Below, piece by piece: positions 5,955 through 61,713 of a stretch of 64,000 nt of DNA. Under the pieces are notes generated by a model. That model worked only from the letters and a program-made list of their open reading frames with translations, searched no databases and had not been told where the DNA came from. This DNA is from a virus. The translations under genes were made by a program, and so were the position numbers. How positions within the stretch are numbered: the first letter of the stretch is position 1; each line of letters opens with the position of its first letter. The stretch covers positions 115,716 through 179,715 of IMG/VR virus record IMGVR_UViG_3300032268_001078; one strand, 5' to 3'.

Positions 5955-5977
5955 AGTCAGTAATAAATATTACTTAT

Positions 5978-6685: not shown

Positions 6686-6714
6686 AACGTGTGTTGATAA
6701 TAAATATAAATTTA

Positions 6715-7221: not shown

Positions 7222-7233
7222 ATGTTATAAATA

Positions 7234-7262
7234 TAAAAAAAGGCTTGGCAAAAGCCAAGCCT
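7234..7262 (-). terminator. Intrinsic terminator of the capsid gene
   Basis: Perfect 9-bp stem AGGCTTGGC / GCCAAGCCT (7254-7262 with 7241-7249, TTTT loop), followed on the minus strand by seven T residues. It lies 25 nt after the major capsid protein stop codon. Confidence 0.9.
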
Positions 7263-7286
7263 CTTTTAAATCAGGTTTAGGTTAGA

Positions 7287-8975: not shown

Positions 8976-9002
8976 TTTATTTTTTTTTGTTTTGTTTTAA
9001 GT

Positions 9003-10385
9003 TTATTTAATTCCAGCTAGTTTTTGCATTCTTGAAATTTGATCATCAGCTTTAATAATTGGTTGGCTTGCTGGGCGACCACCGATTACTTTACTAGCAA
9101 ATGATGTTTTATTTTCTGTTAAAGCTTTTTTGTTAGATGATTTTTTGATAGTTGTTTTCAAAATTTCATAAACATTTTTAGCTTCGTTTAATGATGTAGC
9201 TTTATCAAAAGAACTAACTACATTTACTTTTTGACCTTCAGTTAAACTGTTTGCTTTGAAAATACGATTAACGTAAATCAATTTAGCGTTTAATAAATTA
9301 ACTTCGTTTAATTGACCACGAAGAGTTCTGATGGTACGAATGGCTTCTTTCAATTCTTCTTCTTTAGATTCATCTACATCACCTTTCATCATTTTTTTCT
9401 TTTCCATCATAGCTTTGATTTTAGATTTCATAGCTTCTTTCATGTCATCTTCTTCTTCTTTAATTACTTTAGGTCCTTTATATTTACCTTTCATAGTAAT
9501 TGCAGCAAGATTCTTTTGAGGAGCTACTCCACCTGATGTTCCAGCTTTTTTAGCTTCGTCCATTTCTTTTGGTTCACCTTTGTAACCTTTACGTTGTTTC
9601 ATAGCTTCGTAAAGAGAATAAAGTTCTTCTAATTCTTCTTCTTCAGATTTTTTCTTTTTAGGTTTAGATTTAGATTTTTTGTCTTCTTCACCTTCTTCTT
9701 CACCTTCTTCTTCAGTTTCTTCACCTTCCATTTCACCACCTTCAGCGTCAAAGTTGAAATCCATGTTCATGTCTTCTTCACCTCCCATGTCTTCCATGCC
9801 TTCTTCACCACCTAAACCAGCAGCTTCAAGTTCAGCTCTGATGATTTTTTTAAGTTCATCAACTGTAACTTCACCAATTCCTTCACTTCCTGAAGCAGCT
9901 TCATTTTCCATGTCGAACATTTCGTTCATCATGTCTTCTTCTTCATTTACTTCTTCACCTTCTTTTTCAAGTTCACGTAAGATTTCTTCAAGATCAAAGT
10001 TTTCTTCCATTCCTTCTTCTTCGGAAAGTTCAGAATCCATTTCATACACAGAACCATCACCATCCATGTCTTCTTCTTCAAGAGCATTAAATAATTCTTC
10101 TAAGTCGATTTCTTCTTCAAGACTAGTGTTGTCATCAGGATCATAATCCATTCCTTCTTCTACTTCATTTTCTTCATTCATAGAAATTAGATCTAAATTA
10201 CGATCTGAATTGTAAATTTCTTCCATCTCATCTTTTTCATCATCTCTCATACGTTTTTCAAACATAGCTGAAATACGTGGTGCAAATGATTCTTCAAGAG
10301 AGGCTTTTGCATTGGCAACGGCAGCTTCACGTAGAGCTTTAGCGTCAGCAATGGCTTCTTCGAATAATTTTTTGTTATTTGACAT
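9003..10385 (-). CDS. Prohead scaffold/core protein, gp22-like
   Basis: 460 residues, extremely acidic in the first two thirds (long Glu/Asp runs about residues 50-240), then a Lys-rich stretch and an alpha-helical C-terminus. Position between gp21-like protease and gp23-like capsid genes is the T4 scaffold position. It has several (L/I)xE sites (QLNEV, SLTEG, SLNEA, ALTEN) that the prohead protease could cut to clear the core. The C-terminus 'RMQKLAGIK' is a motif seen again in two other proteins of this window. Function is assigned from composition, position and length rather than a catalytic motif. Confidence 0.82.
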   Translation of the reverse strand: MSNNKKLFEEAIADAKALREAAVANAKASLEESFAPRISAMFEKRMRDDEKDEMEEIYNSDRNLDLISMNEENEVEEGMDYDPDDNTSLEEEIDLEELFNALEEEDMDGDGSVYEMDSELSEEEGMEENFDLEEILRELEKEGEEVNEEEDMMNEMFDMENEAASGSEGIGEVTVDELKKIIRAELEAAGLGGEEGMEDMGGEEDMNMDFNFDAEGGEMEGEETEEEGEEEGEEDKKSKSKPKKKKSEEEELEELYSLYEAMKQRKGYKGEPKEMDEAKKAGTSGGVAPQKNLAAITMKGKYKGPKVIKEEEDDMKEAMKSKIKAMMEKKKMMKGDVDESKEEELKEAIRTIRTLRGQLNEVNLLNAKLIYVNRIFKANSLTEGQKVNVVSSFDKATSLNEAKNVYEILKTTIKKSSNKKALTENKTSFASKVIGGRPASQPIIKADDQISRMQKLAGIK

Positions 10386-19792: not shown

Positions 19793-21154
19793 CTACACAA
19801 AAGATATCAAATCTCCATCATACCATGATTTTACTTCATTATCTTTTTCTAAAATATTTATTGTATTTTGTGTTCTAATAATACTTTCAGCTACATATAT
19901 TCCATGTGCACCAGAAACAGTAATACCACGAGCAGACAATGCATCACCTACAAAATATATATTAGGATATTGTACTAAAGATAGATTTTTATAATCAACT
20001 TTTACTTCAGGCGACAAATATTTTACTTCTGGGATATAAACACCCCAATCATTACTAAATTCAAAAATATCTTTCATATCTAAAATAAAACTTTCAACAT
20101 AATCCCAATATTCACCCATTACTTGTCTTACTTTTTGTAAATCTTGAATTTGATAAGCACTGATATCTTTACCTTCAGATGTTGTTCCTGGTTTTCTTGA
20201 TGGAGAATAATATAATCCTTTACCATCTTTTTGTAATTGATTTACTACATTTCTTGACCATTCAAATGGATTTTCAATTCCTTTGATTTCCATAATAATA
20301 CCAAAATTAGTTAAGTTGTTTCTAAATTCTTCACCTTTTTTAGCATGACCATTGTAAGTAATATCACCATAAGTTTCTTCAACTGCTACATAAGCAGCAT
20401 TATTATTAGTACAAAAACTTCTAATACTTATTTTATCATCTGATTGATATAGTTTAAAATCATAACTAACATCAATTAGTTTTTGAAAGTATTTTTGTGG
20501 TGCTTCAAATCTAACTCCTATTTGTACTGATTTTGGTTCATCAGGTAATTCATAATCCTTTGCTAAGTGTTGAGCAAAATCAATTCCTGATTTACCTACT
20601 GCGAATATTAATTCATCATATGAAATAGGTTCTAATGAATTATCTAATTCAACATATTCATATTTAAAATCAATAAATGTTACTTTTGTTTCCCATTCAA
20701 AATTCACACCTTTATCTACTAAATAACTGTACCAATTTTTAGCAATTTCATGAAGAAAATTTGAACCAATATGCCATACAGGTGACATTCTTAATGTAAA
20801 TTTAGGTTTAATAAAATCAGGTTCTTCTTGTGGATTACTTAAAAATATTTCTTCTGGTTTTGGATGGAATCGTCTAAAGTTTTCAACTACTTCATCCATT
20901 AAAGACAAAGCTTTAGTTTCACCACAGTATTTAGATAACTGACCTCCTTGACTTGTTGATACTACTAATTTTCCATCAGACCATCCACCAGCACCTAACA
21001 TACCTTCCATTACTTCTTCAGGTAAACGATTATGGGGGTCTTTACCCATATCAATAATAGTAATTAAACTACCATCATAACCATTATCTACTAATTTAGT
21101 AGCAGCGTTAATTCCAGCAACACCTGCTCCTACGATAACTATTTTTTTACTCAT
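19793..21154 (-). CDS. FAD-dependent oxidoreductase (COG2509-like)
   Basis: 453 residues. N-terminal dinucleotide-binding motif 'IVIVGAGVAGINAA' (4-17), a GGWSDGKL stretch typical of the FAD-dependent dehydrogenase group, 'ELIFAVGKSG', 'SVQIGVRFE', an 'RSFCTNN' segment near the middle, and C-terminal 'YPNIYFVGDALSARGITVSGAHGIYVAESI' that contacts FAD. The bacterial family is a poorly characterised set of large flavoproteins. It is unusual in a phage and complete, so it is probably functional. No electron-transfer partner is adjacent. A 'TTTTATTATATTAT' motif (21162-21178) is just upstream. Confidence 0.85.
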   Translation of the reverse strand: MSKKIVIVGAGVAGINAATKLVDNGYDGSLITIIDMGKDPHNRLPEEVMEGMLGAGGWSDGKLVVSTSQGGQLSKYCGETKALSLMDEVVENFRRFHPKPEEIFLSNPQEEPDFIKPKFTLRMSPVWHIGSNFLHEIAKNWYSYLVDKGVNFEWETKVTFIDFKYEYVELDNSLEPISYDELIFAVGKSGIDFAQHLAKDYELPDEPKSVQIGVRFEAPQKYFQKLIDVSYDFKLYQSDDKISIRSFCTNNNAAYVAVEETYGDITYNGHAKKGEEFRNNLTNFGIIMEIKGIENPFEWSRNVVNQLQKDGKGLYYSPSRKPGTTSEGKDISAYQIQDLQKVRQVMGEYWDYVESFILDMKDIFEFSNDWGVYIPEVKYLSPEVKVDYKNLSLVQYPNIYFVGDALSARGITVSGAHGIYVAESIIRTQNTINILEKDNEVKSWYDGDLISFV

Positions 21155-22552: not shown

Positions 22553-23587
22553 CTAAAATCCCAATTTTTCCTGGATTTTGTTTAGTACTTCTTCAGTACT
22601 CACTTCATTTTTTATAGGTTTATATTTAATTTCATGTCTTACTTCATTGCCATAAATTCTAGTTATATTGTCTTGAAACTCATGGTTTGGGGGTGTAAAA
22701 TCACTAATCAAAAATACGTGACAGTCACAACTATGTGCTAACCAACTCAAACCACTTGATACACCTATAAAATAAGAAGCTGAAGTTAGTTCGTTTACTC
22801 TGTCTTCTATTGGATAGTCGCCTGTTTTATCGATTATGTTTTTTAAGTTGGTTTTTTCGCGCGAAATCACCACAACTTCATAACCTTTTTCGACGAGGGT
22901 ATCAATAATTTTTTGCCAATCACCGTGCCACATTTTCATATCTAAACTAGCAAATTCACTTATGCAAATTTTGTTAGATTGTTTTTCTAAATTTGGTTTT
23001 TTCACATTAGCTTTTAAATGAACTCTGTCTAAACCTAAAATATCAGCTGCTATAAATGGAAGTGGTTCAGTAATATAAGAAGAAGGTTGATAAATTGGTT
23101 CATTTTTATCATGAGTTCCAACATAGTATTGAGCATACACATTATCTATTCTTGTATTAGGTTGAACAAACATAATATCTGGATAAGTTTCTATAAATAA
23201 ATTATTCCAAAAAGTTGAGCAAATTATTTTAGCTCCACTTGCTTGTCTAAGTGCTTCAATATATGGAATCCATGCTAAGTTATCACCTAAAGCATAAGCA
23301 TCTATTTTTATAAATACTACTTTATCTTTACAATTATAAACATCAGTATGAATTATTTCATTATTATTTTTAATAATTTCTACTTTCCAAAGTACTAAAT
23401 ACTGTACAGGACCACAAAACGGAACACCAGGAGTTATAGGCAATTCCATAAATCGATTTAATAAAGTATTAGTAAGTCTAACAGAATAAGTGTGTTGTAA
23501 TTCTTCTTCAGAATCAATTGTTAAAAGTACTTCAGGTGAACCTTGTTGAATAGGTAAATGTGTAATGTATTTTATAGAATATTTCAC
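22553..23587 (-). CDS. Glycosyltransferase, autotransporter heptosyltransferase-like (GT9 type)
   Basis: 344 residues with a GTG start. Two Rossmann halves: 'VFIKIDAYALGDNLAWIPYIEALRQASG' (N-terminal acceptor domain with the GDNL loop) and 'KICISEFASLDMKMWHGDWQKIIDTLVEKGYEVVVIS' then 'FIGVSSGLSWLAHSCDCHVFLISDF' (donor-binding domain). This matches the autotransporter strand-loop-strand O-heptosyltransferase family (TibC/BAHT relatives). Those enzymes glycosylate Ser residues of autotransporter adhesins. It directly follows two fibre genes, one with YadA-like repeats, so a virion fibre is a plausible acceptor (inference). Confidence 0.82.
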   Translation of the reverse strand: MKYSIKYITHLPIQQGSPEVLLTIDSEEELQHTYSVRLTNTLLNRFMELPITPGVPFCGPVQYLVLWKVEIIKNNNEIIHTDVYNCKDKVVFIKIDAYALGDNLAWIPYIEALRQASGAKIICSTFWNNLFIETYPDIMFVQPNTRIDNVYAQYYVGTHDKNEPIYQPSSYITEPLPFIAADILGLDRVHLKANVKKPNLEKQSNKICISEFASLDMKMWHGDWQKIIDTLVEKGYEVVVISREKTNLKNIIDKTGDYPIEDRVNELTSASYFIGVSSGLSWLAHSCDCHVFLISDFTPPNHEFQDNITRIYGNEVRHEIKYKPIKNEVSTEEVLNKIQEKLGF

Positions 23588-23621
23588 CCTATTAATATAA
23601 TAAAACCTTTAATAAAAACAA

Positions 23622-24119
23622 TTATGAAGGAATTCTTATGTAAGATCCTGATATTCTATAACCACTTCCAGTAAATGAAGCTGCTATATTATAATAGGCT
23701 CCACCTAAACTTACAGACATAGTAACTCCGGGAGCTCCACTTAAACGTTTTTGATAAATGTCTGTTATAAATTCATTTCCTCCACCATTATATGTTCCTA
23801 TAAAATACGAAGAACCACCTACAATAGATGAATTAAGTATTGATCCTGATGTAGCTGTCCAACTTAATTGATAATGAACAGGGGCATTAGTTGATGTATC
23901 AGTTGCAGGAATTTGTAAGAATATTGTATTTGAAGGGTTACTACCAAAACTATAATTAAAAGTTGTTGGTAAGGATGAGGTTAAGTTAGTATTATTAACA
24001 ATTAATGAACCAGTTATATTAACATTTCCATCTATTAAAGTACTACCTGTTATTTGTAGAGCGTATCCATTACTACTCCCACTGTCTTGTATTTCTATTC
24101 CAAAATCAAATGTTGACAT
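23622..24119 (-). CDS. Fibre-associated structural protein
   Basis: 165 residues. Gly/Ser/Thr-rich with fibre phrases 'LQITGSTLIDGNVNITGSLIVNN' and a C-terminal beta-rich globular part ending 'GSGYRISGSYIRIPS'. The 'ITGS' phrases match those in the 1-2638 fibre. It starts two nt after the YadA-like fibre gene, so the two are probably one functional unit, such as a fibre and its tip or chaperone. Serine-rich loops could be glycosylation acceptors for the next gene's product. Confidence 0.72.
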   Translation of the reverse strand: MSTFDFGIEIQDSGSSNGYALQITGSTLIDGNVNITGSLIVNNTNLTSSLPTTFNYSFGSNPSNTIFLQIPATDTSTNAPVHYQLSWTATSGSILNSSIVGGSSYFIGTYNGGGNEFITDIYQKRLSGAPGVTMSVSLGGAYYNIAASFTGSGYRISGSYIRIPS

Positions 24120-24120
24120 G

Positions 24121-25977
24121 TTATTTTCTTATCATTAAAGTTGTACCGTTTGCATAAACTCCTCCCACAGGAACACCATTAGTTGCAGCGTGCGCACTAC
24201 TACTATAATTCATATTAACCACTTGAGGCAGTACTATTGTACCATCATTTTGACTACCTCCATTTACTTTAGTTATTACTACTTCAAATAAATTAGTTCT
24301 AGGGCCTGATATATTTCCAGCTCCTACAATAAATGGTCTATAACCAACTGTATTATATGTGGTTGTTTGTTCTATATTTCCATGTCCTACTACAAATTGA
24401 GCAGTAGCTGAGGCTATAGTTTGATAACCACTAGTATGTGAATACTCTGATTTTGTTGTTGTTTTGTAACCTTCAGTGTGTGATGCTTGTCCTATAGTTG
24501 TTGTTAACCAGCCTTCAGCGTGTGAATATTGTCCAGAAGCGGTAACATATATACCTTCAGCATGTGAATAAAGTCCTGATGCTAATGTATAATATCCTTC
24601 AGCGTGAGCTCCTTCAGCTTTAGTTGTAGTAAATCCACCTTCAGTATGTGAAAATTGACCTATAGCTTTAGTTGCTCCTCCTTCAGCGTGACTATCTGGA
24701 CTTACAGCTGAAGATGAATTTCCTTCAGCATGAGAATAATCTCCTATAGTTATGGTGTAAAATCCTTCACTATGAGACGATATACCTAAAGCTGTAGTAC
24801 TTAATCCTTCAGCATGTGAATAATTACCCTTAGCTGTTGAAGATCCTCCTTCAGCGTGACTGTAAAGTCCAGAAGCTGATACTGTATTTCCATTAGCAAA
24901 TGAATAACTACCAACTGCTATAGAAGCTAAACCAAATGCAACTGATGATAATGATGAACTATTATTACTAGCTCCTATATTAACTGAAGATGTAGTTGAA
25001 TTACCAACAGATGTTACAGATTGTAAATTTTGATTAGTACTGTTTGCTAAATTTAAAGTTCCAGCTGTTTGATTATAACCATTAAAGAATGTAACAGTAT
25101 TACTTGATATAGAAGCAGATGCAAAATTTCCACTTGCTGTACCTCGTAAAGATCCTGTTGCTCCTGCTAAAAATACTGCTGAACCACTAAAATAACTTGT
25201 ATAAGTAGATGTATTACTATTATAACCACGTGTTCCACCAAATATAGCGTAAGGTACTGTATCAAAGGTTGTTTTACGAATAGTAAGAAGTGATGTTGCT
25301 GGTATTGTACTTGAACTTAAAACAAAATGCATAGTTGGAGCATCTTGTCCGCTAGGCTCAAATGCTACTATATTACCATTTCCAAAAGCATAATTTAATG
25401 CTAAAAATTGTTGGTTAGTTCCTACTCCAGGTTCCTCTCCTCTAAATACTTTTATTCCACCTAAAAAACCATCAAGACTTTCACTTGCTACTATTTGTAA
25501 ATTTCCATCAATATTAGTTGTAGAACCACTAAATCTTACATCATTATAAAAAGTAGTAGGCAAATAAAAACTAGCTGTTTGAGGATCAGATCCATTACTA
25601 CTAGTTACTGAAAAACTACCTGTAAATTGAAAAAATCCACCTCTTCCAACAGATTCACTTAGAATAGTAAATGAATTAGTAACATAATTTGAATAAGTAG
25701 CAAATAATGAATAATTAGTTACATTAGAAGCACTTAAAGCATAACTTGCTGTTTTAGCATTCATAGCATATGAAGCTGTAAATTTACCTAAGTCTTTAAT
25801 TTCAATTCCACCACCATTAGATCTTGATAAAATTAAACTATTACTTTGAAAATAATGTGTTGTATAACTAACACTTTGTGATTGTAAAGCAGCGTACTGT
25901 ATATTATTGTCACCTTCTGTAAAAGTAAGAGGTGATCCTTTGACGTTTCTTAATACTAATGAACCTAAATCTGGCAT
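24121..25977 (-). CDS. Fibre protein with YadA-head-like repeats
   Basis: 618 residues. N-terminal half: fibre-type 'ASYALSASNVTNY', 'GSFSVTSSNG' phrases. About residues 335-560: at least ten copies of a degenerate 14-residue repeat 'YSHAEG.ST.A.G.Y' (SHAEG, SHSEG, SHTEG, AHAEG forms), the same kind as Hep_Hag/YadA head repeats that fold into a trimeric left-handed beta-roll. C-terminus is short (GGVYANGTTLMIRK) and may be a trimerisation or attachment tip. An adhesin-like receptor-binding fibre is likely. Late-type motif 25993-26000 is upstream. Confidence 0.85.
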   Translation of the reverse strand: MPDLGSLVLRNVKGSPLTFTEGDNNIQYAALQSQSVSYTTHYFQSNSLILSRSNGGGIEIKDLGKFTASYAMNAKTASYALSASNVTNYSLFATYSNYVTNSFTILSESVGRGGFFQFTGSFSVTSSNGSDPQTASFYLPTTFYNDVRFSGSTTNIDGNLQIVASESLDGFLGGIKVFRGEEPGVGTNQQFLALNYAFGNGNIVAFEPSGQDAPTMHFVLSSSTIPATSLLTIRKTTFDTVPYAIFGGTRGYNSNTSTYTSYFSGSAVFLAGATGSLRGTASGNFASASISSNTVTFFNGYNQTAGTLNLANSTNQNLQSVTSVGNSTTSSVNIGASNNSSSLSSVAFGLASIAVGSYSFANGNTVSASGLYSHAEGGSSTAKGNYSHAEGLSTTALGISSHSEGFYTITIGDYSHAEGNSSSAVSPDSHAEGGATKAIGQFSHTEGGFTTTKAEGAHAEGYYTLASGLYSHAEGIYVTASGQYSHAEGWLTTTIGQASHTEGYKTTTKSEYSHTSGYQTIASATAQFVVGHGNIEQTTTYNTVGYRPFIVGAGNISGPRTNLFEVVITKVNGGSQNDGTIVLPQVVNMNYSSSAHAATNGVPVGGVYANGTTLMIRK

Positions 25978-29247: not shown

Positions 29248-29826
29248 TTATTGTATTTTTTCTTTCTGTAATTTAATCCAATCTTTTACTTCTTTAACAT
29301 GTTCTGGTGTTAAACTATTTCCAGTCCATTCATTTACTTCACCGTCTTCAGTTAAAGTTTTACTAAATCCTAATTTAATAAAATCATCAAATTCCATTTC
29401 TATATTATTTAACATTTGATTTAAATTATTAGTATGTAAGTTTTTAGCATATTCTTCAAATTTACCTTCTAACTTTAAATTACTTTCCATTTTAGCAATA
29501 CATGTAGGACATTTATGTAGTAAATTATACATGTATTTTACATAATCACTTTTGTGATTTAATAGTCCATTACATTCAGGACAAGTAAGAGGCATATTAA
29601 ATTGTTTTTTAAACTTACTTAATTTAGGAATACTTCTTTTAATACCATTTTTAATAGTCCAAGTTTTACCTTGTTCTTCCCATGTGTCTCCTTCTTTTCT
29701 TTGAATATTATTTTCATAACCTATTTGACTTTGTGTTTTATCGCCATGTTTTTTCATAACAATATTTCGCATTCTTTGTACTTCACGCTCAGTAAACTGG
29801 CGATTTAGTAATGTTTCTTTATTCAT
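29248..29826 (-). CDS. Zinc-ribbon-containing hypothetical protein
   Basis: 192 residues. 'LTCPECNGLL...HKCPTCIAKM' gives a CxxC...CxxC zinc ribbon near residues 78-113. N-terminal 'FTEREVQRMRNIVMKK' basic helix; C-terminal 'LTPEHVKEVKDWIKLQKEKIQ'. 'KTLTEDGEVNEW' holds LTE and VNE sites. Its ATG overlaps the previous gene's TGA (ATGA), so it is translationally coupled to the large fusion protein. Unknown function, possibly nucleic-acid binding. Confidence 0.7.
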   Translation of the reverse strand: MNKETLLNRQFTEREVQRMRNIVMKKHGDKTQSQIGYENNIQRKEGDTWEEQGKTWTIKNGIKRSIPKLSKFKKQFNMPLTCPECNGLLNHKSDYVKYMYNLLHKCPTCIAKMESNLKLEGKFEEYAKNLHTNNLNQMLNNIEMEFDDFIKLGFSKTLTEDGEVNEWTGNSLTPEHVKEVKDWIKLQKEKIQ

Positions 29827-32252
29827 AACTCGTATTTGTGTAATTTTTCTATTGATTCTTTTGAATTTTCTGGGTTGTTTTTTATTCCTATCCCACCAGC
29901 TTGAGTAAATTCTGTTGTGTTTTTACTCATATCATCTATTAAGATATAACCTTCTTTAGCTTCTGTGTGTTTATCTTTTGCTTGTTTAAATACTCTGCGA
30001 TTTTGTGGAATAGATGTATGTTTATTTAACCATTCATTTTTACCTTTTTTAGCGTCTCCATTAGGATCTAAACCAGGACTTGATAATACCCAAACTTCAA
30101 TACCATTTTTAGGAGCCATTTTCATAACATAATTATAAAGTTCTTTTCCTCCAGGATTCCAATTCATTCCTGACCAGTATGTATCTGTTCCTTTGTTAAT
30201 TATATCCCAAGCTTTTTTAGCGCCATATTTTCCAATGTATTCTTTAAAATCTAATTTTTCGTCATTGTATTTTTTAAACTGCTCGTCAAAATCAGCTAAT
30301 ACTCCATCTAAATCAAAGTAAATTCTTGTAATTTTTGGATTTTTTTTTTCATTTAATTTAGGAGTATTGTCATGTCCACATTTATGACACACATACATAT
30401 CTTTTCCTCCATCTTTCTTTTTCCAAGTCCAACCACAATTATCACAAGTTATAGTTTTTTTTGTTTCAGATTCGTTTAACACACCAATTTTATAAATGTC
30501 TGGGTTTTGTTTGCCATAGTCTCTCATAATAATACCAGCAATACTATTAGCATCATTTTCATGGTCACTGCCTGTTTCACCACTATTTGGTTTAAGTAAA
30601 CCTATTTCATTTTGTTTAGCATGAACTAATTCATGAGCTAATGTTCTATAAATGTCAACAATATTCCTATTAGAAGGATTAATGAGTATATGATGATCAA
30701 AGGGAACATAAGCCCCAAAGCTAGGTTGTTCCTCTCCGAATTCGTATCGGATTTCCAACGTTGGCGGGTTTTGAATTTGGAGTTCTTGACAGGCATAAGA
30801 CATAAAATTATTTAAAAGTGATTGGATATTATCTTGAGATGATTCATTCAATGAAATTGTTTTATCAATCAACTCATTTTTTAAATCATTCAATTTATCT
30901 AAATAACCTGTGTTTCTTAAATCTTTAAATGCTAAATTTTCAACTGAGTATTCTCCGTTTTTATCTAATCCAGCTTGTCTAAAATTCTTTAAACGTTCTT
31001 GTATTGTTTTTATTTGTTCTATTGATTTTTCAGGATTTTTATTTCCTGTTTTTAATAATTGATTTATTTTTTCTTTAAAAGGACGAGATTTTTTCTTAAT
31101 ATTTCCATCAGGAATATTTATAGCTTCATATTCTGGTTTCTTTTCCCATTTATCATTTAATACTGAATAAACTCCTGTAGATGTGTGTTTTTCATTTAGG
31201 TTTTGAACATAAATTTCTATAGGTTGTTTACCTAGTTTTGGATCATGAGCATTATTCCAATTATTTTTTGCTGAGTCAAACCATTTCTTTACCATTTCTG
31301 GGTTGGGAAATTTATTAAAATCAATAACAATGTGTAAATCTATATCAGATAAATTAGAATAATTGTAATTAGCAGATGAACCTGTTAATACAACATCATC
31401 AAATGGTTCAGGAATATCTAAACCATCCCAAAACATTGTAGCAATTTTTAATAATAATTCTTTAACTTGTGGGTCTAATTTGTCACCATCAAATAACATA
31501 GGATTAAGTTGGTTATTATTTTTATATTCTTCTAACCAAACCCAATTTTTTTCTTTATTATAGTTATTATCCTCTTGTAATGATTTAGGATTAATTGGAT
31601 TTATTTTTAGAATTTTTAAAAAATCATCAAATAATCCTTTATTAATAAGAGATTCAGGCATTAATGCTTTTAAATAATCATATGTGTTGTTATAATCATT
31701 TAAAGCTATTGTATATTCTTTAGTTCCTTTTTGTTGTTTACGTAGTTTATTAAAAGTTTCTTTTAATTTACTTATTGTTCCAACAAATTCAGCTTCACCA
31801 ACGTCTTCTCCATCTTTATCAGTAAAATGATCATTTATAACTTGACTATAAACACGATCACTAAATTTTTCTTGTAGTTTATTTACATACCCATTAGTTG
31901 TTTCTTCTTGAGATCCAGCAACATATGCTTCATTTTCTAAATTAGCAAAAAAGCTAAATAAGTCTTTAATAGGAGATGCATTTTTAGCAATAGCAATTTT
32001 TACCTTTGGATTTGGATTAGATTCTAAATATAAATCCCAAATAGCTTTACTTTGTTGTGGAGTAACATTGTTTTTAGTATCGTTTCCTATTAAAACAATA
32101 ACTTGATTTATATAGTTTTTTCCAGCTAATGATTCAACAGCATTAAAATGTCCTTTATTAGGTGGTTTAAAAGCCCCTGGATAATAACATGATAAAGGAG
32201 GATTTGCTATTTGTTCTCCTATTTGTTTCCCTATTTGTTCTATATTTACCAT
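29823..32252 (-). CDS. Multidomain fusion: adenylyltransferase-like, MNT nucleotidyltransferase, metalloprotease, zinc ribbon, HAD phosphatase
   Basis: 809 residues with at least five domains. 1-165: nucleotidyltransferase with 'PGAFKPPNKGHFNA' (25-38), the (T/N)xGH motif of NMN/pantetheine-phosphate adenylyltransferases. 285-355: pol-beta-type 'LTGSSANYNYSNLSDIDLHIVID' (289-310; GS..D.D). 475-580: zinc metalloprotease 'LAHELVHAKQ' (HExxH at 540-544). 603-627: Cys4 zinc ribbon (CDNC, CHKC). 640-809: HAD phosphatase 'FDLDGVLADF' (646-655), 'LSSP' and 'LIDDMSKN', like 5'-nucleotidases. (L/I)xE sites sit at the joins: LQE 225-227, LNE 468-470, LNE 592-594, LNE 633-635. It may be a polyprotein cut by the prohead protease (inference). 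Confidence 0.85.
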   Translation of the reverse strand: MVNIEQIGKQIGEQIANPPLSCYYPGAFKPPNKGHFNAVESLAGKNYINQVIVLIGNDTKNNVTPQQSKAIWDLYLESNPNPKVKIAIAKNASPIKDLFSFFANLENEAYVAGSQEETTNGYVNKLQEKFSDRVYSQVINDHFTDKDGEDVGEAEFVGTISKLKETFNKLRKQQKGTKEYTIALNDYNNTYDYLKALMPESLINKGLFDDFLKILKINPINPKSLQEDNNYNKEKNWVWLEEYKNNNQLNPMLFDGDKLDPQVKELLLKIATMFWDGLDIPEPFDDVVLTGSSANYNYSNLSDIDLHIVIDFNKFPNPEMVKKWFDSAKNNWNNAHDPKLGKQPIEIYVQNLNEKHTSTGVYSVLNDKWEKKPEYEAINIPDGNIKKKSRPFKEKINQLLKTGNKNPEKSIEQIKTIQERLKNFRQAGLDKNGEYSVENLAFKDLRNTGYLDKLNDLKNELIDKTISLNESSQDNIQSLLNNFMSYACQELQIQNPPTLEIRYEFGEEQPSFGAYVPFDHHILINPSNRNIVDIYRTLAHELVHAKQNEIGLLKPNSGETGSDHENDANSIAGIIMRDYGKQNPDIYKIGVLNESETKKTITCDNCGWTWKKKDGGKDMYVCHKCGHDNTPKLNEKKNPKITRIYFDLDGVLADFDEQFKKYNDEKLDFKEYIGKYGAKKAWDIINKGTDTYWSGMNWNPGGKELYNYVMKMAPKNGIEVWVLSSPGLDPNGDAKKGKNEWLNKHTSIPQNRRVFKQAKDKHTEAKEGYILIDDMSKNTTEFTQAGGIGIKNNPENSKESIEKLHKYEL

Positions 32253-32269
32253 TACTCAATTAATAAATA

Positions 32270-33049
32270 TTACTCTAATTTAGTTGTTATAGGTAATGTT
32301 TCAAATAATGGTTTATTATTTGGATTTTCAAGAGAAAATATTTCATAAATATTCTTAAACATTTGAAAATAATTATCAATTGATTTATCTGGTTCAACTA
32401 TTTCCCAACCTTCTCCTTGTAATTTACCATCTTTTGCTTTTCTTTTTGATGATTTTAACCACAATAATCCTACTTTTTCAATTTTATTTTCACTTATTTC
32501 ATTCCAAGCTTTAGCATATGCTGATAATTGTAAATTATATGAAGTATGTAATGAATTTGATGTTTTAATGTCTAAAATCCATAATTTATCTTGAATTTTA
32601 ACAATCAAATCACACGTTCCTGCATATTTGTGTTCATGAGATAATAAATGAATTTCACTAGCTACTAGTTCTGGTTTATGAGTATTCCAAAAATCACTAA
32701 ATTTTAAAATCATTTTCCATACATCTAAACTGTATTTTGCTGTTCCATTTTCATCCATCCATTTTAATTCTTCACCTTGTAAGAAATTTTCAATAGCATT
32801 GTGAACAGCTGTTCCTTCTTCACTTGCTTTTCTAACAATAATATCACTATTGTGTGAAACATCTTTTAACCAATTTTCAAAAAATTTATTTTTTGGATAA
32901 AAATTTAATATAGATGTTACAGATGGATAAAATTCTCCAGTTTCTGTTTTATAAAATCTACTATCTAAAAAATTTATTTGTTCTCCTTGATGTTCTACTA
33001 TACGTTTTAAATAAGGATGTTTGTAAATATTATCGTTTTTTTGTATCAT
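32270..33049 (-). CDS. PD-(D/E)XK nuclease, RecB/Cas4-like
   Basis: 259 residues. 'FYPSVTSILNFYPK' N-terminus, 'EEGTAVHNAIENFLQGE' (the G-x-x-H helix of RecB-family nucleases), then the catalytic series 'YAGTCDLIVKIQDKLWILDIKTSN' (D...D-x-K) and 'YNLQLSAYAKAW' (QxxxY). This is a RecB/PDDEXK_1-type exonuclease. Usually acts in DNA recombination or repair. Four-base ATGA overlap with the primase gene upstream, so the two are likely co-translated. Confidence 0.88.
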   Translation of the reverse strand: MIQKNDNIYKHPYLKRIVEHQGEQINFLDSRFYKTETGEFYPSVTSILNFYPKNKFFENWLKDVSHNSDIIVRKASEEGTAVHNAIENFLQGEELKWMDENGTAKYSLDVWKMILKFSDFWNTHKPELVASEIHLLSHEHKYAGTCDLIVKIQDKLWILDIKTSNSLHTSYNLQLSAYAKAWNEISENKIEKVGLLWLKSSKRKAKDGKLQGEGWEIVEPDKSIDNYFQMFKNIYEIFSLENPNNKPLFETLPITTKLE

Positions 33050-33972
33050 AAATTTATTTTTCTAAGCATTAATTCACTAAGTGTTAGTGGGTATGCATTA
33101 TGTAATTTTTCTGTAAATTGTTCAAATCCCATTTCACTAGGATCTTTATCTTCCATATCAACCATATACACTTCTTTACCATAACTTAATAAAGTTTGCG
33201 CGTGATTTAATGCAGCCTTTTGAGCATCACAATCTAATGCAATATATATTGTTTTTACACTAGACTCAACGAGTTTTTTCATTAATGCAGTAGAAAGTGT
33301 CTTACCAAAGATAGGAATAGAATTGCGACGAACAGCAATGGCGTCAAACGATCCCTCAACAAGTATAATTGGCATCTCCCAATTGATGAGTGCCTCAAAA
33401 CCAATAATATCGTTTTTGTTGCATTTTGGTGTATCATATTTTCTAGACTTATTCGGATCCATAGTGCGACTGACAAAATAGTTGACACTGTAAGAACTGT
33501 TATAAGAAGGAATAATAATACTATTAGCATATTGTCCAGTAGTTGCATATCCTATATTATATTTTATAATTTCTGTTTCTGTTATTCCACGTTTTTTTAA
33601 GTATGTTTTAGCTCTTCTTGCTTCTAAACTTGTATCGGCAATAAGATGAATAAATTCTTTAGGTAATTCTACTTGATTGTAGTCTTTTACCAAATCTTGT
33701 TTAGGAGAAACACCTAAAATTGAACGAAGTTCAAATACTTTTTCTCTAGGTGCTTTTATTTTCCTAAATAAATTTGGAAGTTGTAAACCTTTTACATTAC
33801 AAACCCAACAAGCAAATGGATTTTCTCCTTTAGTATTGGTTTGAAGTTGAATTTCTAATTTTGGTTTATGATGATTACACAACGGACAATGAAATGCATA
33901 ATTTCCTCTTGCTGTTTTTTTACTTTTTCCTAAAACACCTTCTAAACAATTTAATAATAGAATATTATCCAT
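33046..33972 (-). CDS. DNA primase, gp61/DnaG-like
   Basis: 308 residues. N-terminal zinc finger 'FHCPLCNHHKP...FACWVCNVKG' (Cys29, 32, 55, 58), then a helical domain 'YLKKRGITETEIIKYNIGYAT' and a TOPRIM catalytic core 'PIILVEGSFDAIAVRR' plus 'IYIALDCDAQKAAL' and a Lys/Asp-rich end. Makes RNA primers for lagging-strand synthesis. The matching helicase (gp41) is not seen in the window. A 'TTTATTATATTA' motif is just upstream (33975-33993). Confidence 0.9.
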   Translation of the reverse strand: MDNILLLNCLEGVLGKSKKTARGNYAFHCPLCNHHKPKLEIQLQTNTKGENPFACWVCNVKGLQLPNLFRKIKAPREKVFELRSILGVSPKQDLVKDYNQVELPKEFIHLIADTSLEARRAKTYLKKRGITETEIIKYNIGYATTGQYANSIIIPSYNSSYSVNYFVSRTMDPNKSRKYDTPKCNKNDIIGFEALINWEMPIILVEGSFDAIAVRRNSIPIFGKTLSTALMKKLVESSVKTIYIALDCDAQKAALNHAQTLLSYGKEVYMVDMEDKDPSEMGFEQFTEKLHNAYPLTLSELMLRKINL

Positions 33973-33990
33973 TATTAATAATATAATAAA

Positions 33991-34446
33991 TTAACTTGGA
34001 AGAACCAAATCTTTTCTAAAAAAATGTCCAGAAATATTATCATTAAAACTAAGTGGATCTTCTAAAACATTGTATTTAAATAAATACTTCAATTCAGTGT
34101 ATGTTTGAATTTTCTTATTGGGGCAAATCGCTAAAATTTCTCTTTTAAAGTTGTTTTTACCTTCTGCTTTAACATAAGTTAAGAATTCTTTACTAGAACC
34201 CCAATAGTCTTTCCAAGTACTTTCTTTAGTAACAATTTTAGTTGATGGTTTTCTACCTCTTCCAGTTTGTTCTAATAATTCTTTTTTACCAAGTTTTTGT
34301 TTGGTATTATTAAATAAAATCTTTTTTCCAATATAATATCGATTTGATGTCTTATGTGTAATTTTATACACGAAACCAAACGAATCTTGAGGAAAATCGT
34401 CAACTGTATTGTAACATTTTAGTTCATTTTTAAATTCGTACCACAT
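33991..34446 (-). CDS. GIY-YIG-like nuclease
   Basis: 151 residues from ATG 34446 (MWYEFKNELKCYN); an earlier TTG two codons upstream is less likely because the ATG shares a base with the previous stop (TAATG). 'GFVYKITHKTSNRYYIGKKIL' carries the GIY-YIG pattern (VYK...YYIGK), followed by a basic loop and 'STWKDYWGSSKEF'. Probably a small phage endonuclease; it may act in recombination or as a mobile gene. Confidence 0.75.
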   Translation of the reverse strand: MWYEFKNELKCYNTVDDFPQDSFGFVYKITHKTSNRYYIGKKILFNNTKQKLGKKELLEQTGRGRKPSTKIVTKESTWKDYWGSSKEFLTYVKAEGKNNFKREILAICPNKKIQTYTELKYLFKYNVLEDPLSFNDNISGHFFRKDLVLPS

Positions 34447-34844
34447 TACCAATCCATTTTAATTATAAAAGTCATATCTGTATTATTTGATAAAGGAACA
34501 GGTTGAGCCATTTTAGCTATTGCTAAAAGTTGATTTGAATCATTGTATAAACCTATTACTGATATGTATGGACTAAAATCTGATCCAGTAGCAAAGTTTT
34601 TTATTTGTGTGTCTGGTTGAGTATAGTAACTACTTGTATATGGTGTTGGAAGTACACTACCTGTAACCCAATCAGATCCAGATAAATACACATAACCTGT
34701 TGATCCTGTAGTTAAAGTTGGATTGTAACTTGTGTTAAATTCATAGTCTTTAACAACACATTTTATAGTTTGTTCATAAACAGGATAAGTGTTATTTATC
34801 TGTAAATTATATATACTGCTGGTATTTACTGTGAATAATGCCAT
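34446..34844 (-). CDS. Structural protein with shared C-terminal domain
   Basis: 132 residues, Thr/Ser/Tyr-rich. C-terminal 'ISVIGLYNDSNQLLAIAKMAQPVPL...FIIKMDW' is clearly homologous to the end of the 35551-36576 product 'ITTVGLYNDNNELLAVAKLSKPL...VRIKLDY'. Such domains are typical of tail or baseplate proteins. Likely a tail component; precise role unknown. Confidence 0.7.
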   Translation of the reverse strand: MALFTVNTSSIYNLQINNTYPVYEQTIKCVVKDYEFNTSYNPTLTTGSTGYVYLSGSDWVTGSVLPTPYTSSYYTQPDTQIKNFATGSDFSPYISVIGLYNDSNQLLAIAKMAQPVPLSNNTDMTFIIKMDW

Positions 34845-34845
34845 A

Positions 34846-35541
34846 TTAACTACATACGTAATAACCTTGATTGTTTTGTGGTGTTACATCAGGAGTGTAA
34901 AAATCAGGAACAAAGTAAGATGTTGTACAAATATTTGCTGTTATCAATGTAATAGGAATAATAGTTAATGTAGCTAAACCTTGTTCATACCATACATTCC
35001 CAACATAACTTGATTGACTCAATATTGTATTATTTACAGAACTAGAAATATTATTTCCTGACCATCTTAAATTGTATTCTCCATCATCATAAATTACACC
35101 TCCACTAACTTCTAATCTAATACTACCTGGTTGGATTTTTTCATAATAAATATTTTTAGGAATGTTTAATGTTAAAATATAATTTCCTGTGTCTGTAGGA
35201 AAGTATTTTTCTGTTGTAGTTCCATTTCCTAGTCTTTGTAAAGCGTTATAATCAATATTTTGTTTTAAAGTACTATTTAAATTATTAGTTTGAAAATAAG
35301 AAGAAGTACTATGAGACTCAGTAGGATAAAATTCAGGATAATAGTTACTTAATACAGATTGATAAAGTAAATTTTCAGTTGTGTATTGATTTTTAGGAAT
35401 ACTTCCTGCTTTTTCTCCTATATTAAATTTTATATTATAAGAATTAAATGAAGCAGATACAATATCATAATGTTTATTTGCTTCATAAGGAGAAACAAAA
35501 ACATCACTTACATCAAATCTTTTATTAAAAGTATCTGCCAT
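34846..35541 (-). CDS. Hypothetical tail/baseplate structural protein
   Basis: 231 residues. Begins 'MADTFNKRFDVSDVFVSPYEANKHY', rich in Asn, Ser, Thr and Tyr, beta-rich, with 'KIQPGSIRLEVSGGVIYDDGEYNLRWSG'. A similar 'GSLTLKLKNG' stretch in the 35551-36576 product suggests related domains. Tight spacing within a run of structural genes. No function recognised beyond this context. Confidence 0.68.
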   Translation of the reverse strand: MADTFNKRFDVSDVFVSPYEANKHYDIVSASFNSYNIKFNIGEKAGSIPKNQYTTENLLYQSVLSNYYPEFYPTESHSTSSYFQTNNLNSTLKQNIDYNALQRLGNGTTTEKYFPTDTGNYILTLNIPKNIYYEKIQPGSIRLEVSGGVIYDDGEYNLRWSGNNISSSVNNTILSQSSYVGNVWYEQGLATLTIIPITLITANICTTSYFVPDFYTPDVTPQNNQGYYVCS

Positions 35542-35550
35542 GCCATTTTA

Positions 35551-36576
35551 TTAGTAATCCAGCTTAATTCTTACAAGTGTTTCTTTTGTAAAGTCTTTTT
35601 GTAATGGTTTACTTAATTTAGCTACAGCTAATAATTCATTATTATCATTGTATAATCCTACAGTAGTAATATAAGTTACAGGAGAATAAATCAATTGGTT
35701 ATAAATTAAATTTCCATCACTATCAATAATAGTTGGGTTTGCTGTGTAATTATTTTCAGCATTTTTAGCTCTACAAAATATAAAATTTGAAGAAATTACT
35801 TCACTTGCTTGTAAACTAAAATTAGCACCAGAACTCACAGCATTAAATAATATTCTATTGTTATAATTATAAAATGGATTTTGTTCAGGTGTTGAAGAAT
35901 TACTTGTATTCCAACTTATACCAATACCTCCATCAGCTATAGATGCACTTAAAGCATTAGGATTTAAAATAATAGCTCCTAAATCAGGAAATACATAACC
36001 ATATGTTCCCATAGCTGTTCCAGCTGTACTGTAAGCATTTCCTTGACTTCCACTTATTAAAGTATAATACTGAGTAGAATTAATAAATGTAGCTGATGTT
36101 TGAACTTGACTATTGTCTGTTAAACTTAATTCATCTGTTCCATTTTTTAATTTTAAAGTTAAACTTCCTGGATTGAAAGATTGTTTATATTTACTTCTAG
36201 CTACTGAAATTACCGCAATACTATCAGAACCTGAAGTATAATCAAAATTAAATTTAGAATTTTCATCTCCTAAAATTAATGCTCTCCATTGTCCATAAAC
36301 ATCTTTAGTAGGAGTTGAATATGGAGCTAAACTATTAAAATAATATGATCCGCTTCCTAAAATATTACCATAAGCTATTGAAAATTGATTAGTAGCATTA
36401 GCATCAGTTGAAGATGTTTGGTAAACATTTAAATAAAACCTACCAGTACTTCCACTTTCTTGAATAGAACTAGTAAAAAATGAATTTAATGTATAAACAT
36501 TATTAGACCAAGCGGGAGATACTAGTATCTCATTATTTACTACTTGGTCATCTGGTTGTATAGTTGTAAAAGCCAT
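35551..36576 (-). CDS. Hypothetical tail/baseplate structural protein
   Basis: 341 residues. N-terminus 'MAFTTIQPDDQVVNNEILVSPAWSNN', middle 'KYKQSFNPGSLTLKLKNGTDELSLTDN' and the C-terminal 'GLYNDNNELLAVAKLSKPL' domain shared with the 34446-34844 protein. Beta-rich, Ser/Thr/Asn composition typical of tail structural proteins. One-base overlap with the gene before it. Confidence 0.7.
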   Translation of the reverse strand: MAFTTIQPDDQVVNNEILVSPAWSNNVYTLNSFFTSSIQESGSTGRFYLNVYQTSSTDANATNQFSIAYGNILGSGSYYFNSLAPYSTPTKDVYGQWRALILGDENSKFNFDYTSGSDSIAVISVARSKYKQSFNPGSLTLKLKNGTDELSLTDNSQVQTSATFINSTQYYTLISGSQGNAYSTAGTAMGTYGYVFPDLGAIILNPNALSASIADGGIGISWNTSNSSTPEQNPFYNYNNRILFNAVSSGANFSLQASEVISSNFIFCRAKNAENNYTANPTIIDSDGNLIYNQLIYSPVTYITTVGLYNDNNELLAVAKLSKPLQKDFTKETLVRIKLDY

Positions 36577-37241
36577 TATTGTTTTTTCTTAACTGTGTAT
36601 GGAATACTAATTCTAGCACCTGAATTTCTACCTAAAATATTAATAGTTGTTGTAACTTGAGTAACACCAGTTGGGAAAATATCATTTAAACTAGTAGCAG
36701 TGATAGTAAATGCTGTACCAATTTGAGTAACACTTAATGGAGCTCCTGATGTAGTTGGAGTTGCTGTTGTACTTGGTAAAGCTGTTGTATCAACTCCTGT
36801 ACCTGTAAAAGATGCTACTAAATTTTGATTAGAAATTGTAATTAAATAACCTAAAGGTTCAACAGTTTCAATAGTTCCTAAATAATTTAATGTTGTAGGT
36901 TGTAAAGTAACAGTAGCCCCTTGTTGTATACTGAAACTAGCTCTACCACCAACATTTAATACTGGTAGTCTTGAAGTACCTCTTGGTAGAGTTACTAATT
37001 GATATTTAAGATCTTGAGTATCATCTACAAAAGCTTCTAATAAAGGTAAACGCTCAATTGCTTCACCGTAAAAAGCTGATCCTGATGGATGATTTGGATT
37101 ATAAAGTGTATAATCAATTTCATCATCTGCTAATGCAAATTGAGTAATTCTAAAAGAACCGTCGTTTCGTGCTAATAATTCTCTGCCTTTACGGGTTAGA
37201 ACAGCGTCTATAGTAACAAATTCGTTATTTAAATATGCCAT
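36576..37241 (-). CDS. Conserved virion structural protein
   Basis: 221 residues. 'LTRKGRELLARNDGSFRITQFALADDEIDYTLYNPNHPSGSAFYGEAIERLPLLEAFVDD' is a block I associate with structural proteins of several aquatic and Bacteroidetes phages; the C-terminus is a Thr-rich Ig-like domain (ITATSLNDIFPTGVTQVTTTI...ISIPYTVKKKQ). A baseplate or tail position is likely from context. Late-type motif 37250-37257 upstream of the ATG. Confidence 0.72.
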   Translation of the reverse strand: MAYLNNEFVTIDAVLTRKGRELLARNDGSFRITQFALADDEIDYTLYNPNHPSGSAFYGEAIERLPLLEAFVDDTQDLKYQLVTLPRGTSRLPVLNVGGRASFSIQQGATVTLQPTTLNYLGTIETVEPLGYLITISNQNLVASFTGTGVDTTALPSTTATPTTSGAPLSVTQIGTAFTITATSLNDIFPTGVTQVTTTINILGRNSGARISIPYTVKKKQ

Positions 37242-37256
37242 AATTTATGATAAATA

Positions 37257-40200
37257 TTATACTAATAAGTTTTTTGATGCTAAATCTTGAACTATATTTG
37301 AAAAATTTTCTTTTAATGTTGAAGAAGGATATTTAGGTAATATAAATCCTGGGCCTTGAGAGTTTTGAGTATTTAACATTATAAAACCAGGGTCATCTAT
37401 TAATCGTCTTATAACAAAATAATCTAAATTTTGTCCTTGAGGAGTTCTATCTAAAAATAAATGTAATTGATTAGAAAGATCTATTGATGATGATAAAATA
37501 GTATATACTTGACTTTCATTTCCCATAAATCTTATTTCATCATTTATATTAATAGTAAAAGGTAAAGGACTTGAAAAACCACTATTAGGATTTGATATTA
37601 ATGGATATGTATATGAATCTAATTGAGTATAACTTTCACCATAAAAATAACTTAATGATGGAGATACTACTAATTCTGTACTTCCTGTTGTTGTTGTTAC
37701 TAAAAATGGTGCTTTAGCGTTTGTGTAAAGTGCTGCTCCAGCTGGATCTATTTTAAATTGAGTATAATTTCCTCCATCTTCATCTAAAATATAAATTGCT
37801 GAACCAACAGGATCTCTATTATCGGAGTAGGTTACATAGAAACTATCTCCTGCTTTTAATAATCCTGTCCAACTAACATCAAAAATTCCTGTTGTATTAT
37901 CACTAACATTTTTAGCCTCGGTGTCTAATAATACACCATTATTGTATAAACGTATAAATACAAATACAGTATCTGGTGAAATATTAAAATTATTTCTAAC
38001 TATTACTTTAGCAGATACAGTAACTTGACCAGTAGAATTTCTAGTTACATTGTAAGTAGAAGTTGAAGTATTCCATCCTCTGGCTTCATCTTCAGCAATA
38101 TCATTAAATTTTATACCTTCAAATTCTACAGGTTGGTATGTATCAGTTAATCCTACTAATGTTGTAATTGCAGTTATATCACCAGAAGGTGAATAAAAAG
38201 ACATTGTTGTATTATATCCTGGCTGTAAATAATTTGTATCTAATGATCCTGTATCTGAGTAAAGTATTGTTGAATAAGTTCTTAATGGTCTATGAACTGT
38301 AGTTGATTTTGAAGATTGTTGATAATAAGTAGCATTATATAATGTATAATTTACTTCATCATATGCTCCAAATCCTTGATCTACAATACCATAATACTCT
38401 GATCCAGTTGGTTCAGGTAAATATGTTTTCCCAGTTTCATCAATTAAATATCTAATATGAAAATTATTAGAACCTTGTCTTTCAGCTAAAGTATCACTAG
38501 TCCAATCATAGAATAACATATATGGTGTAGTTACTTCTACATTACTAAAAGACAAAGAAGGATAATTATTAATAAATTGATTAAAACCAGGAGCTGTAAG
38601 TTTTACACCTTCTACTCTACTTCTATCCCAACTAGTTTCAGTTAATAAACTGTCTTGAAATTCAACACTTCCACTTTTTAAAACATTTATAGTTGATGGT
38701 TGGAATATAAATTCAACAAACAACCATGATAAAAATCCAGGACCATCAAATGAATATAAACTTCCTTCACATGCATCTATAAGTATATTTCTACCACCTA
38801 AAAGAGCACTAGGAATAAGTGTTAATTGACTATTACCACTACAGTCTGTATATGTTAATATATGAGCACTACTTATATCTAAATTATTTACATCATATCT
38901 TACACAAGTACACCTTGTATCTGGTTCTACTTGAGTATTAAGTTTTTTAAATTTAAATTGACTAATTATAGCTTTATCAACATTATTATTTAAAGCATCA
39001 TATCCTCCATATTGTTGAACAAATCGTGTTCCATAATAAGGTTTAGAATCTAATATTGTATATCCAGTTCCAAAAATATGACCTATTTGATCTTTTAAAG
39101 CTATAATTTGAATTTGATTTAACCCACTAGAACCAGAAGCTTGTTGTGTGTTACTACAATCTGACCAGGTAAGTAATCCATCATATTGAATTGTATACTC
39201 ATAACATTCAGTCACAGATGTGAATGGATTAATTTGTTCATAAGAACTGTCTAAATTTATAGTAGAATCACTTATATTTCCTGTATAGAAAGCTTCATTT
39301 AATGGAGAATTTCTTGAACAACAATAATTTCCAGGATTAGATCCTTCGATAGTCACAATTTCAGTTTCACCAAAATACACAGAACTTGTACTAACATTAG
39401 GTTCATGTCTAGCTACTTTGTTTCTTTCAAGAATATGAGGTTTAATTATTACACCACTAGACATGTCTGTTCTAGCTGGTGTAAAATCATTTAAATATCT
39501 AAATAAAGACTTATGAAAAGTCTCCATTAGTATTAAAAAATCTTTATAATTGTAAGCAGTATTGTATTTAGTAAAATAGTTTTCTTGTAATTTAGTTAAA
39601 GCTTCATAATTAGAATCTGTAAGAGTTGATGGATCTCCTATAATATTATCTAAATTATAAGTATTACCTAAGTGAGCTATAATATCATTGTTAATTTGAT
39701 CTTGTGGACTAAATCCAGCTTGAGTAGTTTGAACATCAAATGTTCTAGAACTAGTAGAAGGATAAACTACAGATTTATTAAATTGAAGAATGTTTGAAGC
39801 TAAACTTTCACTAACTATTCTAATTTTATTAGTAACAGGAACAGAATATCCTCCAATAGCTGGTTGGCTATAATACATTTCTGTAAAAGAAATATAATTT
39901 GAACCAGTAAGATTTAAAGTAATATCTGGTCTTAAAGTTGGTTGTGAACCAGTAATTCTACTTCCACTTATTTGTAAATCATTTCCTAAAGGAAATCTAA
40001 ATAATAAATCATTATAAGCTGAATTTGAATTATTTCCTACATATGATTCTGGATTTAATGTATGAGTATTAATTATAGATTCAGAAATAAAATTATTGTA
40101 TGCTTTTAATTCTTGAAATTGACCATAATATTCACCAGTTCCAAAATTATAAAAAGGAGAACTAATTAAAGATGCTGTAATATTTGGAGGAATTGTTCCT

Positions 40201-42685: not shown

Positions 42686-42687
42686 AA

Positions 42688-43923: not shown

Positions 43924-43936
43924 GTGTTAATAAATA

Positions 43937-61098: not shown

Positions 61099-61165
61099 TT
61101 TTATTTAAAATATTTTTTATTTAATATAATAATTTTATTTAAATGTTTTAATATCATAATTTATA

Positions 61166-61202
61166 TGATTATTACACAATAACTTACTTAAATTACCCCT
61201 TC
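61166..61202 (-). promoter_or_regulatory. Bipartite early promoter, copy E
   Basis: AGGGG, 18-nt spacer, GTGTAATAATCATAT; no clear gene directly follows before copy D. Confidence 0.5.
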
Positions 61203-61298
61203 TTTCATTTAGTAAACAAGGCAACTTTTCACACACGTTAAACGAGGCAACTTTTCACTTACTAAACGAGGCAAGTTTTCACAATTAAAACAAAAACT

Positions 61299-61651: not shown

Positions 61652-61713
61652 TCTACATTTGATGTTATGTTGTGTAGGTTTTATTTTACTCGCTATTCAC
61701 CAACGAATTTTAC

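Follow-up and report, generated by a model that had tools for sequence, protein, structure and literature searches.

The window analyzed here is a 64,000-nucleotide stretch that forms the right end (positions 115716 to 179715) of the 179,715-base phage record IMGVR_UViG_3300032268_001078 (G000). It contains three minus-strand open reading frames (ORFs) that encode, in the order of transcription, a fibre protein, a companion rich in serine and threonine, and a glycosyltransferase (Table 1); their coordinates were confirmed as given in an earlier reading of the sequence alone, termed here the sequence-only reading. We propose, with a probability of about 0.6, that the last gene encodes an active protein O-glycosyltransferase with the fold of TibC and AAH, which modifies the beta-solenoid fibre of the same phage and probably draws on the ADP-heptose of the host. 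This proposal on the activity, acceptor, donor, timing, and biological role of the enzyme builds on its computed family and fold, its conserved active site, the loss of two structural elements (the iron finger and the thumb), purifying selection, and an association between enzyme class and fibre class.

The 344-amino-acid enzyme matched the NCBIfam profile TIGR04414 (autotransporter O-heptosyltransferase) with an E value of 1.5e-47 and a score of 162.4 bits, which falls below the curated cut-off of 200 bits. By sequence, TibC was its only real match in the Protein Data Bank (2.5e-24 with phmmer and 1.6e-42 with the family profile), and a Foldseek comparison of its AlphaFold2 model (pLDDT, 93.7) with TibC gave 2.4e-25. 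The model consists of an N-terminal beta-barrel and a GT-B catalytic domain, in agreement with the two-domain glycosyltransferase described in the sequence-only reading. It was superposed on TibC with a Z score of 35.3 and 2.1 angstroms over 328 residues spanning positions 1 to 344, the barrel included. For the lipopolysaccharide (LPS) heptosyltransferases, Z scores were 18 to 19; that of WaaC (18.6) covered the catalytic domain alone (residues 89 to 343). The Pfam family Glyco_transf_9 gave an E value of 0.00095, below its family cut-off. The enzyme is thus nearer to TibC than to the LPS heptosyltransferases in both sequence and fold, which bears out the resemblance to TibC-like enzymes noted in the sequence-only reading. 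In the strict sense it is not a member of the BAHT family (TibC and AAH), whose enzymes transfer heptose to serines of adhesins, because it has neither the iron finger nor the thumb and its score does not reach the curated value.

A scan of viral contigs with the single enzyme sequence returned no matches; an alignment-based scan retrieved 452 loci with relatives, and the best 80 of these were divided into two classes. Class A, which includes the window enzyme, comprises proteins of about 345 to 353 amino acids without the finger. Class B enzymes, also common in phages, are usually the C-terminal domain of a larger protein and keep 4 to 5 cysteines (finger-bearing). The iron finger is present in nearly all relatives outside class A, and its four cysteines were found neither in the window enzyme nor in any of 20 class A members. 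The maximum-likelihood tree places class A on one side of a branch with a support of 100 (99 with the C-terminal part removed), and TIGR04414 matched 20/20 class A members (best E value, 6e-66). According to the alignment, the thumb hairpin region of the window enzyme is 9 residues shorter than that of TibC, so that the beta-hairpin with its hydrophobic tip (Phe265 and Val266 in TibC; PMC4358343) is deleted.

We mapped the working residues of TibC (PMC4358343) onto the phage enzyme via alignments. The active-site Asp, Lys, Arg, and Trp are all kept (Table 1), and Ser214 stands in for TibC Thr226. Close pairs of relatives showed dN/dS values of 0.13 to 0.23, and the finger-less enzyme is therefore a maintained protein. 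Based on alignment and model, it is predicted to work like TibC. A non-catalytic role as a chaperone or in localisation has a precedent in the same-family protein BimC, which targets the trimeric autotransporter BimA to the pole via its iron finger (PMC11499645); since class A lacks exactly that finger and its catalytic residues are invariant, we consider such a role very improbable.

A rival view is that the enzyme targets the LPS or a surface glycan of the host cell, for instance to prevent superinfection, and that it lies near fibres only because receptor genes cluster. This view would be compatible with the GT-B fold that the catalytic domain of the enzyme shares with WaaC and RfaF, with weak matches to LPS heptosyltransferase I in 8 of 20 class A members, and with its distance from any fibre in several phages. 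However, the TibC-specific N-terminal barrel is retained, TibC is by far the better match in sequence and fold, and enzyme class follows fibre class (see below), which makes this explanation unlikely.

The proposed acceptor has repeats with an exact period of 14 residues and the consensus SHAEGxxTTASGxY, in register with canonical YadA-head units (SVAFGLASIAVGSY, SFANGNTVSASGLY). Each of the 8 fibre segments from the family matched the Pfam domain YadA_head (PF05658), with 1.1e-31 as the best E value; the window's own segment alone gave 0.15, which is below significance. The profile of the fibre family matched the head structures of BpaC (7o23, 3.9e-36), CbpF, and YadA (1p9h, 1.4e-6). The single-chain model of the repeat block is a beta-solenoid that gave only generic beta-helix matches in a fold search, and the link to YadA therefore rests on sequence profiles. 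At the level of the sequence family, the fibre is YadA-head-like, which bears out the YadA-like fibre with SHAEG repeats of the sequence-only reading. No Pfam family was detected in the 618-amino-acid fibre, hence no trimeric-autotransporter membrane anchor domain, and its gene sits in a phage record. The companion, described as Ser/Thr rich in the same reading, indeed ranks second among the 63 window proteins of at least 100 amino acids with 27.3% Ser+Thr, followed by the fibre (26.2%). No family was found for this 165-amino-acid protein, which is probably a second fibre or appendage part.

Other fibre genes were noted in the record. A second SHAEG-repeat fibre (996 amino acids) is encoded outside the window at record positions 68743 to 71733, about 66 kb from the enzyme, and is probably a further acceptor. 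In addition, a cluster of fibre-like proteins that are very large (689 to 1456 amino acids) and rich in Ser/Thr is located at window positions 2 to 2638 and record positions 106110 to 118353; these are possible acceptors too.

To relate enzyme class to fibre class, SHAEG fibres were searched in whole records. They were present in 13 of 20 class A records, 0 of 16 class B records, and 0 of 17 terminase relatives of the window phage (Fisher's test for class A, about 5e-5 against class B and about 2e-5 against terminase relatives), although these and all following enzyme/fibre counts are partly redundant by ancestry. Among records longer than 60 kb, the numbers were 8/10 for class A and 0/14 for class B. 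One record (G011) that holds both enzyme classes and SHAEG fibres was counted as class A. The enzyme was located at most 2.5 kb from a SHAEG gene in 6 of the 11 SHAEG-holding class A records, as compared to 0.88 expected by random placement (P = 7e-5), and in 5/10 when the window was left out (P = 5e-4). Within 8 kb, the only comparison in which sequences were dereplicated at 90%, class A enzymes were accompanied by SHAEG fibres (8:0) and class B enzymes by GTSG repeats (20:1; P = 2e-6). Permutation of the gene order within loci around the enzyme resulted in P values of 0.26 (class A and tagged fibres) and 0.04 (class A and Ser/Thr-rich ones); since this test is too weak on short stretches, whole-record positions were used. 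In two terminase relatives of the window (L194 and L195), the gene that immediately precedes a GTSG fibre codes for a class B enzyme.

These data also bear on whether virion proteins are glycosylated but with a main acceptor other than the SHAEG fibre, namely, the companion, the large Ser/Thr-rich fibres (window positions 2 to 2638 and beyond), or another appendage. The companion sits between fibre and enzyme, the protein at 2 to 2638 has 30% Ser+Thr, the record contains more large fibres, and some class A records in the range of 87 to 135 kb (G007 and G008) had no SHAEG match. However, SHAEG fibres are the only kind of appendage whose presence follows that of class A from record to record, and we regard a different main acceptor as improbable.

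In some phages, further enzymes accompany the pair. In L019 (positions 5854 to 9062) and L020, the fibre and the class A enzyme are separated by a sulfotransferase (PF13469) and a fusion of an APS kinase with a cytidylyltransferase-like domain; a sulfotransferase and the same type of fusion adjoin the class A enzyme in L044. These genes hint at sulfated fibre glycans. In L027, a GT4 glycosyltransferase is located between the class A enzyme and the fibre, next to both.

A number of results weigh against the proposed modification of the fibre by the enzyme. (i) In TibC, mutating any cysteine of the iron finger or the thumb tip abolishes activity (PMC4358343). As class A lacks both elements, it cannot be taken for granted that its enzymes are active on acceptors like that of TibC, and as each is needed for TibC assembly and activity, the phage enzyme must differ at the oligomer level. 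(ii) A search of the fibre for the strand-loop-strand acceptor repeat family gave no match. (iii) The association between enzyme and fibre is strong but not conclusive because of the redundancy mentioned above. (iv) No fibre was present in the available stretch of eight loci (L021, L023, L032, L035, L037, L042, L045, and L048), and in the relatives L021 and L023 the enzyme gene is flanked by an oxidoreductase gene and the terminase region, and not by a fibre gene. (v) In Flavobacterium phage immuto, a SHAEG fibre is encoded but an enzyme of this kind was not found; the fibre is therefore not always dependent on the enzyme. (vi) No match to gmhA or rfaE domain II, the only heptose-pathway genes searched, was obtained in the whole record, so that either the host would have to provide the donor or the sugar is a different one. 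The earlier suggestion that the enzyme is paired with the phage's own fibre holds insofar as the two classes go together across many phages, whereas their adjacency is not universal.

As to the donor, ADP-heptose appears most likely because the arginine that reads the adenine and the tryptophan that reads the heptose are conserved. An alternative is that the acceptor is the same but the donor is another nucleotide sugar, possibly from the phage's own supply. Point (vi) would agree with this, as would a 16-kb sugar cluster at record positions 30080 to 45735, outside the window, which encodes 4,6-dehydratase-like and epimerase-like proteins, a DegT aminotransferase, and GT2, GT4, and GT10-like glycosyltransferases, including a dTDP-glucose 4,6-dehydratase-like enzyme (TIGR01181, 1.5e-89) and an RfbH-like aminotransferase. 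Given that the equivalents of TibC Arg286 (adenine) and Trp305 (heptose O4) are kept and that the cluster is about 95 kb away from the enzyme, we consider another donor possible but doubtful. The enzymes of this cluster could provide such a donor or lengthen the glycan beyond its first sugar. The cluster also includes two small ORFs for split E1-dehydrogenase-like thiamine pyrophosphate (TPP) proteins.

The following mechanism is proposed. A sugar, most likely heptose from the host ADP-heptose pool, would be moved onto Ser/Thr residues of the YadA-head-type fibre in the host cytoplasm, before virion assembly. With thumb and finger gone, the dodecamer of TibC is impossible by known contacts, and the enzyme presumably works as a smaller oligomer, which would fit a trimeric fibre. 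Because the record holds a cluster of sugar-pathway and glycosyltransferase genes, the first sugar may then be lengthened by other phage enzymes. The glycan might serve in protection, in receptor binding, or in masking. More tentatively, and with somewhat less than even confidence, we suggest a widespread O-glycosylation system of large phages, in which two TibC-derived enzyme types are matched to two repetitive Ser/Thr-rich fibre types (the finger-less clade to YadA-head fibres, and the finger-bearing enzymes to GTSG fibres) and in which the glycan is elaborated by accessory enzymes, namely, extra glycosyltransferases, the sulfotransferase with APS kinase, and enzymes of nucleotide-sugar synthesis. 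As the enzyme clade is well defined, has a relative that is understood from experiments, and is linked in many phages to one particular fibre type, both the acceptor and the chemistry can be put to the test. Furthermore, the persistence of the TibC fold under purifying selection without iron finger and thumb bears on the purpose of those parts.

The sequence-only reading held that the phage borrows a bacterial adhesin-decoration pair. A bacterial pair of a trimeric autotransporter and a TibC family protein does exist (BimA/BimC; PMC11499645), but there is no simple loan, since the window enzyme belongs to a phage-only clade without finger and thumb. A simple origin from a present-day bacterial enzyme/adhesin pair was considered and is not supported: the sole class A match in 84,980 bacterial and archaeal genomes (L107) was on a 3.8-kb contig that looks like phage and was probably mis-binned with a Rickettsiales genome. 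By eye, this contig also has a ClpP-like and a GIY-YIG-like ORF.

Comparison with known systems reveals the following likenesses and differences. (i) TibC of enterotoxigenic Escherichia coli (PDB 4rap and 4rb4) shares the domain architecture and the active-site residues; it modifies a repetitive adhesin with a beta-solenoid fold whose gene lies nearby, as is proposed for the phage. The passenger that TibC modifies is a beta-helix, and genes of the BAHT family are usually found next to that of their autotransporter (PMC4358343). Both enzymes share 23 to 25% identity, but TibC has 406 residues and a proline (Pro300) where the phage enzyme has a serine, and the phage enzyme, without finger cysteines and beta-hairpin thumb, has no known route to a dodecamer. 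(ii) AAH, the heptosyltransferase for AIDA-I, has serine at this stereoselectivity position like the phage enzyme, which in AAH permits the use of both ADP-D,D- and ADP-L,D-heptose (PMC4358343); as a BAHT, AAH possesses both the finger and the thumb (PMC4358343), which are missing from the phage enzyme. (iii) BimC of Burkholderia is likewise a TibC family protein encoded beside a YadA-type trimeric adhesin, but it has kept its iron finger, and its role is in polar targeting (PMC11499645). (iv) The GT9 LPS heptosyltransferases WaaC and RfaF have the GT-B catalytic fold and use ADP-heptose as donor; they differ in having no N-terminal barrel and align over about 243 residues only. (v) Flavobacterium phage immuto (Immutovirus) is similar in its terminase (58.7%) and in a SHAEG tail-spike protein (47.5%), but no TibC-like enzyme was found in it. 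(vi) Microcystis phage Mel-JY01 (terminase, 49%) has a TibC-like domain beside Ser/Thr-rich appendage genes, but this domain is of class B with finger cysteines kept, is fused in a 1227-amino-acid protein annotated as FkbM methyltransferase, and is accompanied by a GTSG-repeat fibre rather than SHAEG. Among cultured phages, none with a class A enzyme was found.

Few cases of virion protein glycosylation are known in phages. In mycobacteriophages, virion glycoproteins are made by phage enzymes. In phage XacN1, modified virion proteins have been attributed to phage-encoded glycosyltransferases (PMC5852040). Phage-encoded glycosyltransferases are thus common to these cases and the window phage, but no TibC-type enzyme is reported for them in the literature found, and our literature search retrieved no paper on phage TibC-like enzymes.

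Regarding the locus itself, the gaps between fibre and companion (1 base) and between companion and glycosyltransferase (34 bases) are short, and scans for promoters and terminators in the fibre-to-enzyme interval showed nothing above chance; with no terminator seen between them, the three genes are likely cotranscribed. The closest cultured phage by terminase is immuto, which suggests a Bacteroidota host, probably similar to Flavobacterium, for the window phage.

Table 1. Positions in the window of the three genes, the mapped parts of their products, and the next gene
Feature	Position	Strand	Details
Fibre/adhesin-like protein with YadA-head (SHAEG) repeats, proposed acceptor	24121..25977	-	618 aa; PHROG 25468, 2.2e-37
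14-residue repeat block of fibre, residues about 345-526	24400..24945	-	Predicted beta-solenoid; pLDDT about 90 over residues 331-510
Ser/Thr-rich companion	23622..24119	-	165 aa
TibC-like glycosyltransferase, class A (without iron finger and thumb)	22553..23587	-	344 aa; GTG start
N-terminal beta-barrel domain of enzyme, residues 1-88	23324..23587	-	Common to TibC, not WaaC; model, superposition
Asp102, equivalent to TibC catalytic base Asp110	23282..23284	-	Invariant in class A; alignment
Lys218, equivalent to TibC Lys230 (beta-phosphate)	22934..22936	-	Invariant in class A; alignment
Arg263, equivalent to TibC Arg286 (adenine contact, ADP-sugar specificity)	22799..22801	-	Nearly invariant in class A; alignment
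Ser277, at position of TibC Pro300/AAH Ser294 (heptose stereoselectivity)	22757..22759	-	Invariant Ser in class A; alignment
Trp282, equivalent to TibC Trp305 (heptose O4)	22742..22744	-	Invariant in class A; alignment
Phage exonuclease-like gene, next after glycosyltransferase	22520-21426	-	PHROG 704, 3.2e-76

Further observations were made on class B relatives and on other genes of the record. GTSGTSG-repeat proteins (up to 2612 amino acids; 53% Ser+Thr) adjoin the finger-bearing class B enzymes of L050 to L053 (e.g., L051), L058, L062 to L069, L077, L079, and L081, and are among the most Ser/Thr-rich phage proteins in this analysis. One phage record, IMGVR_UViG_3300006484_001465, contains one enzyme of class A and one of class B (L085 and L040), each near a SHAEG fibre gene. 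The oxidoreductase gene mentioned above has an unusually conserved counterpart in the window (positions 19793 to 21154), which encodes a 453-amino-acid FAD/NAD oxidoreductase. In L021 and L023, the gene for this protein (70 to 73% identity) is the immediate neighbour of the class A enzyme gene. An 809-amino-acid composite protein (window positions 29823 to 32252) had no NCBIfam match; by eye, it has a nucleotidyltransferase-like start and a 5'-nucleotidase-like end, and parts of it are common to many class A contigs. Finally, a 537-amino-acid ORF outside the window (record positions 61141 to 62754) resembles, by eye, a GroEL-type chaperonin.

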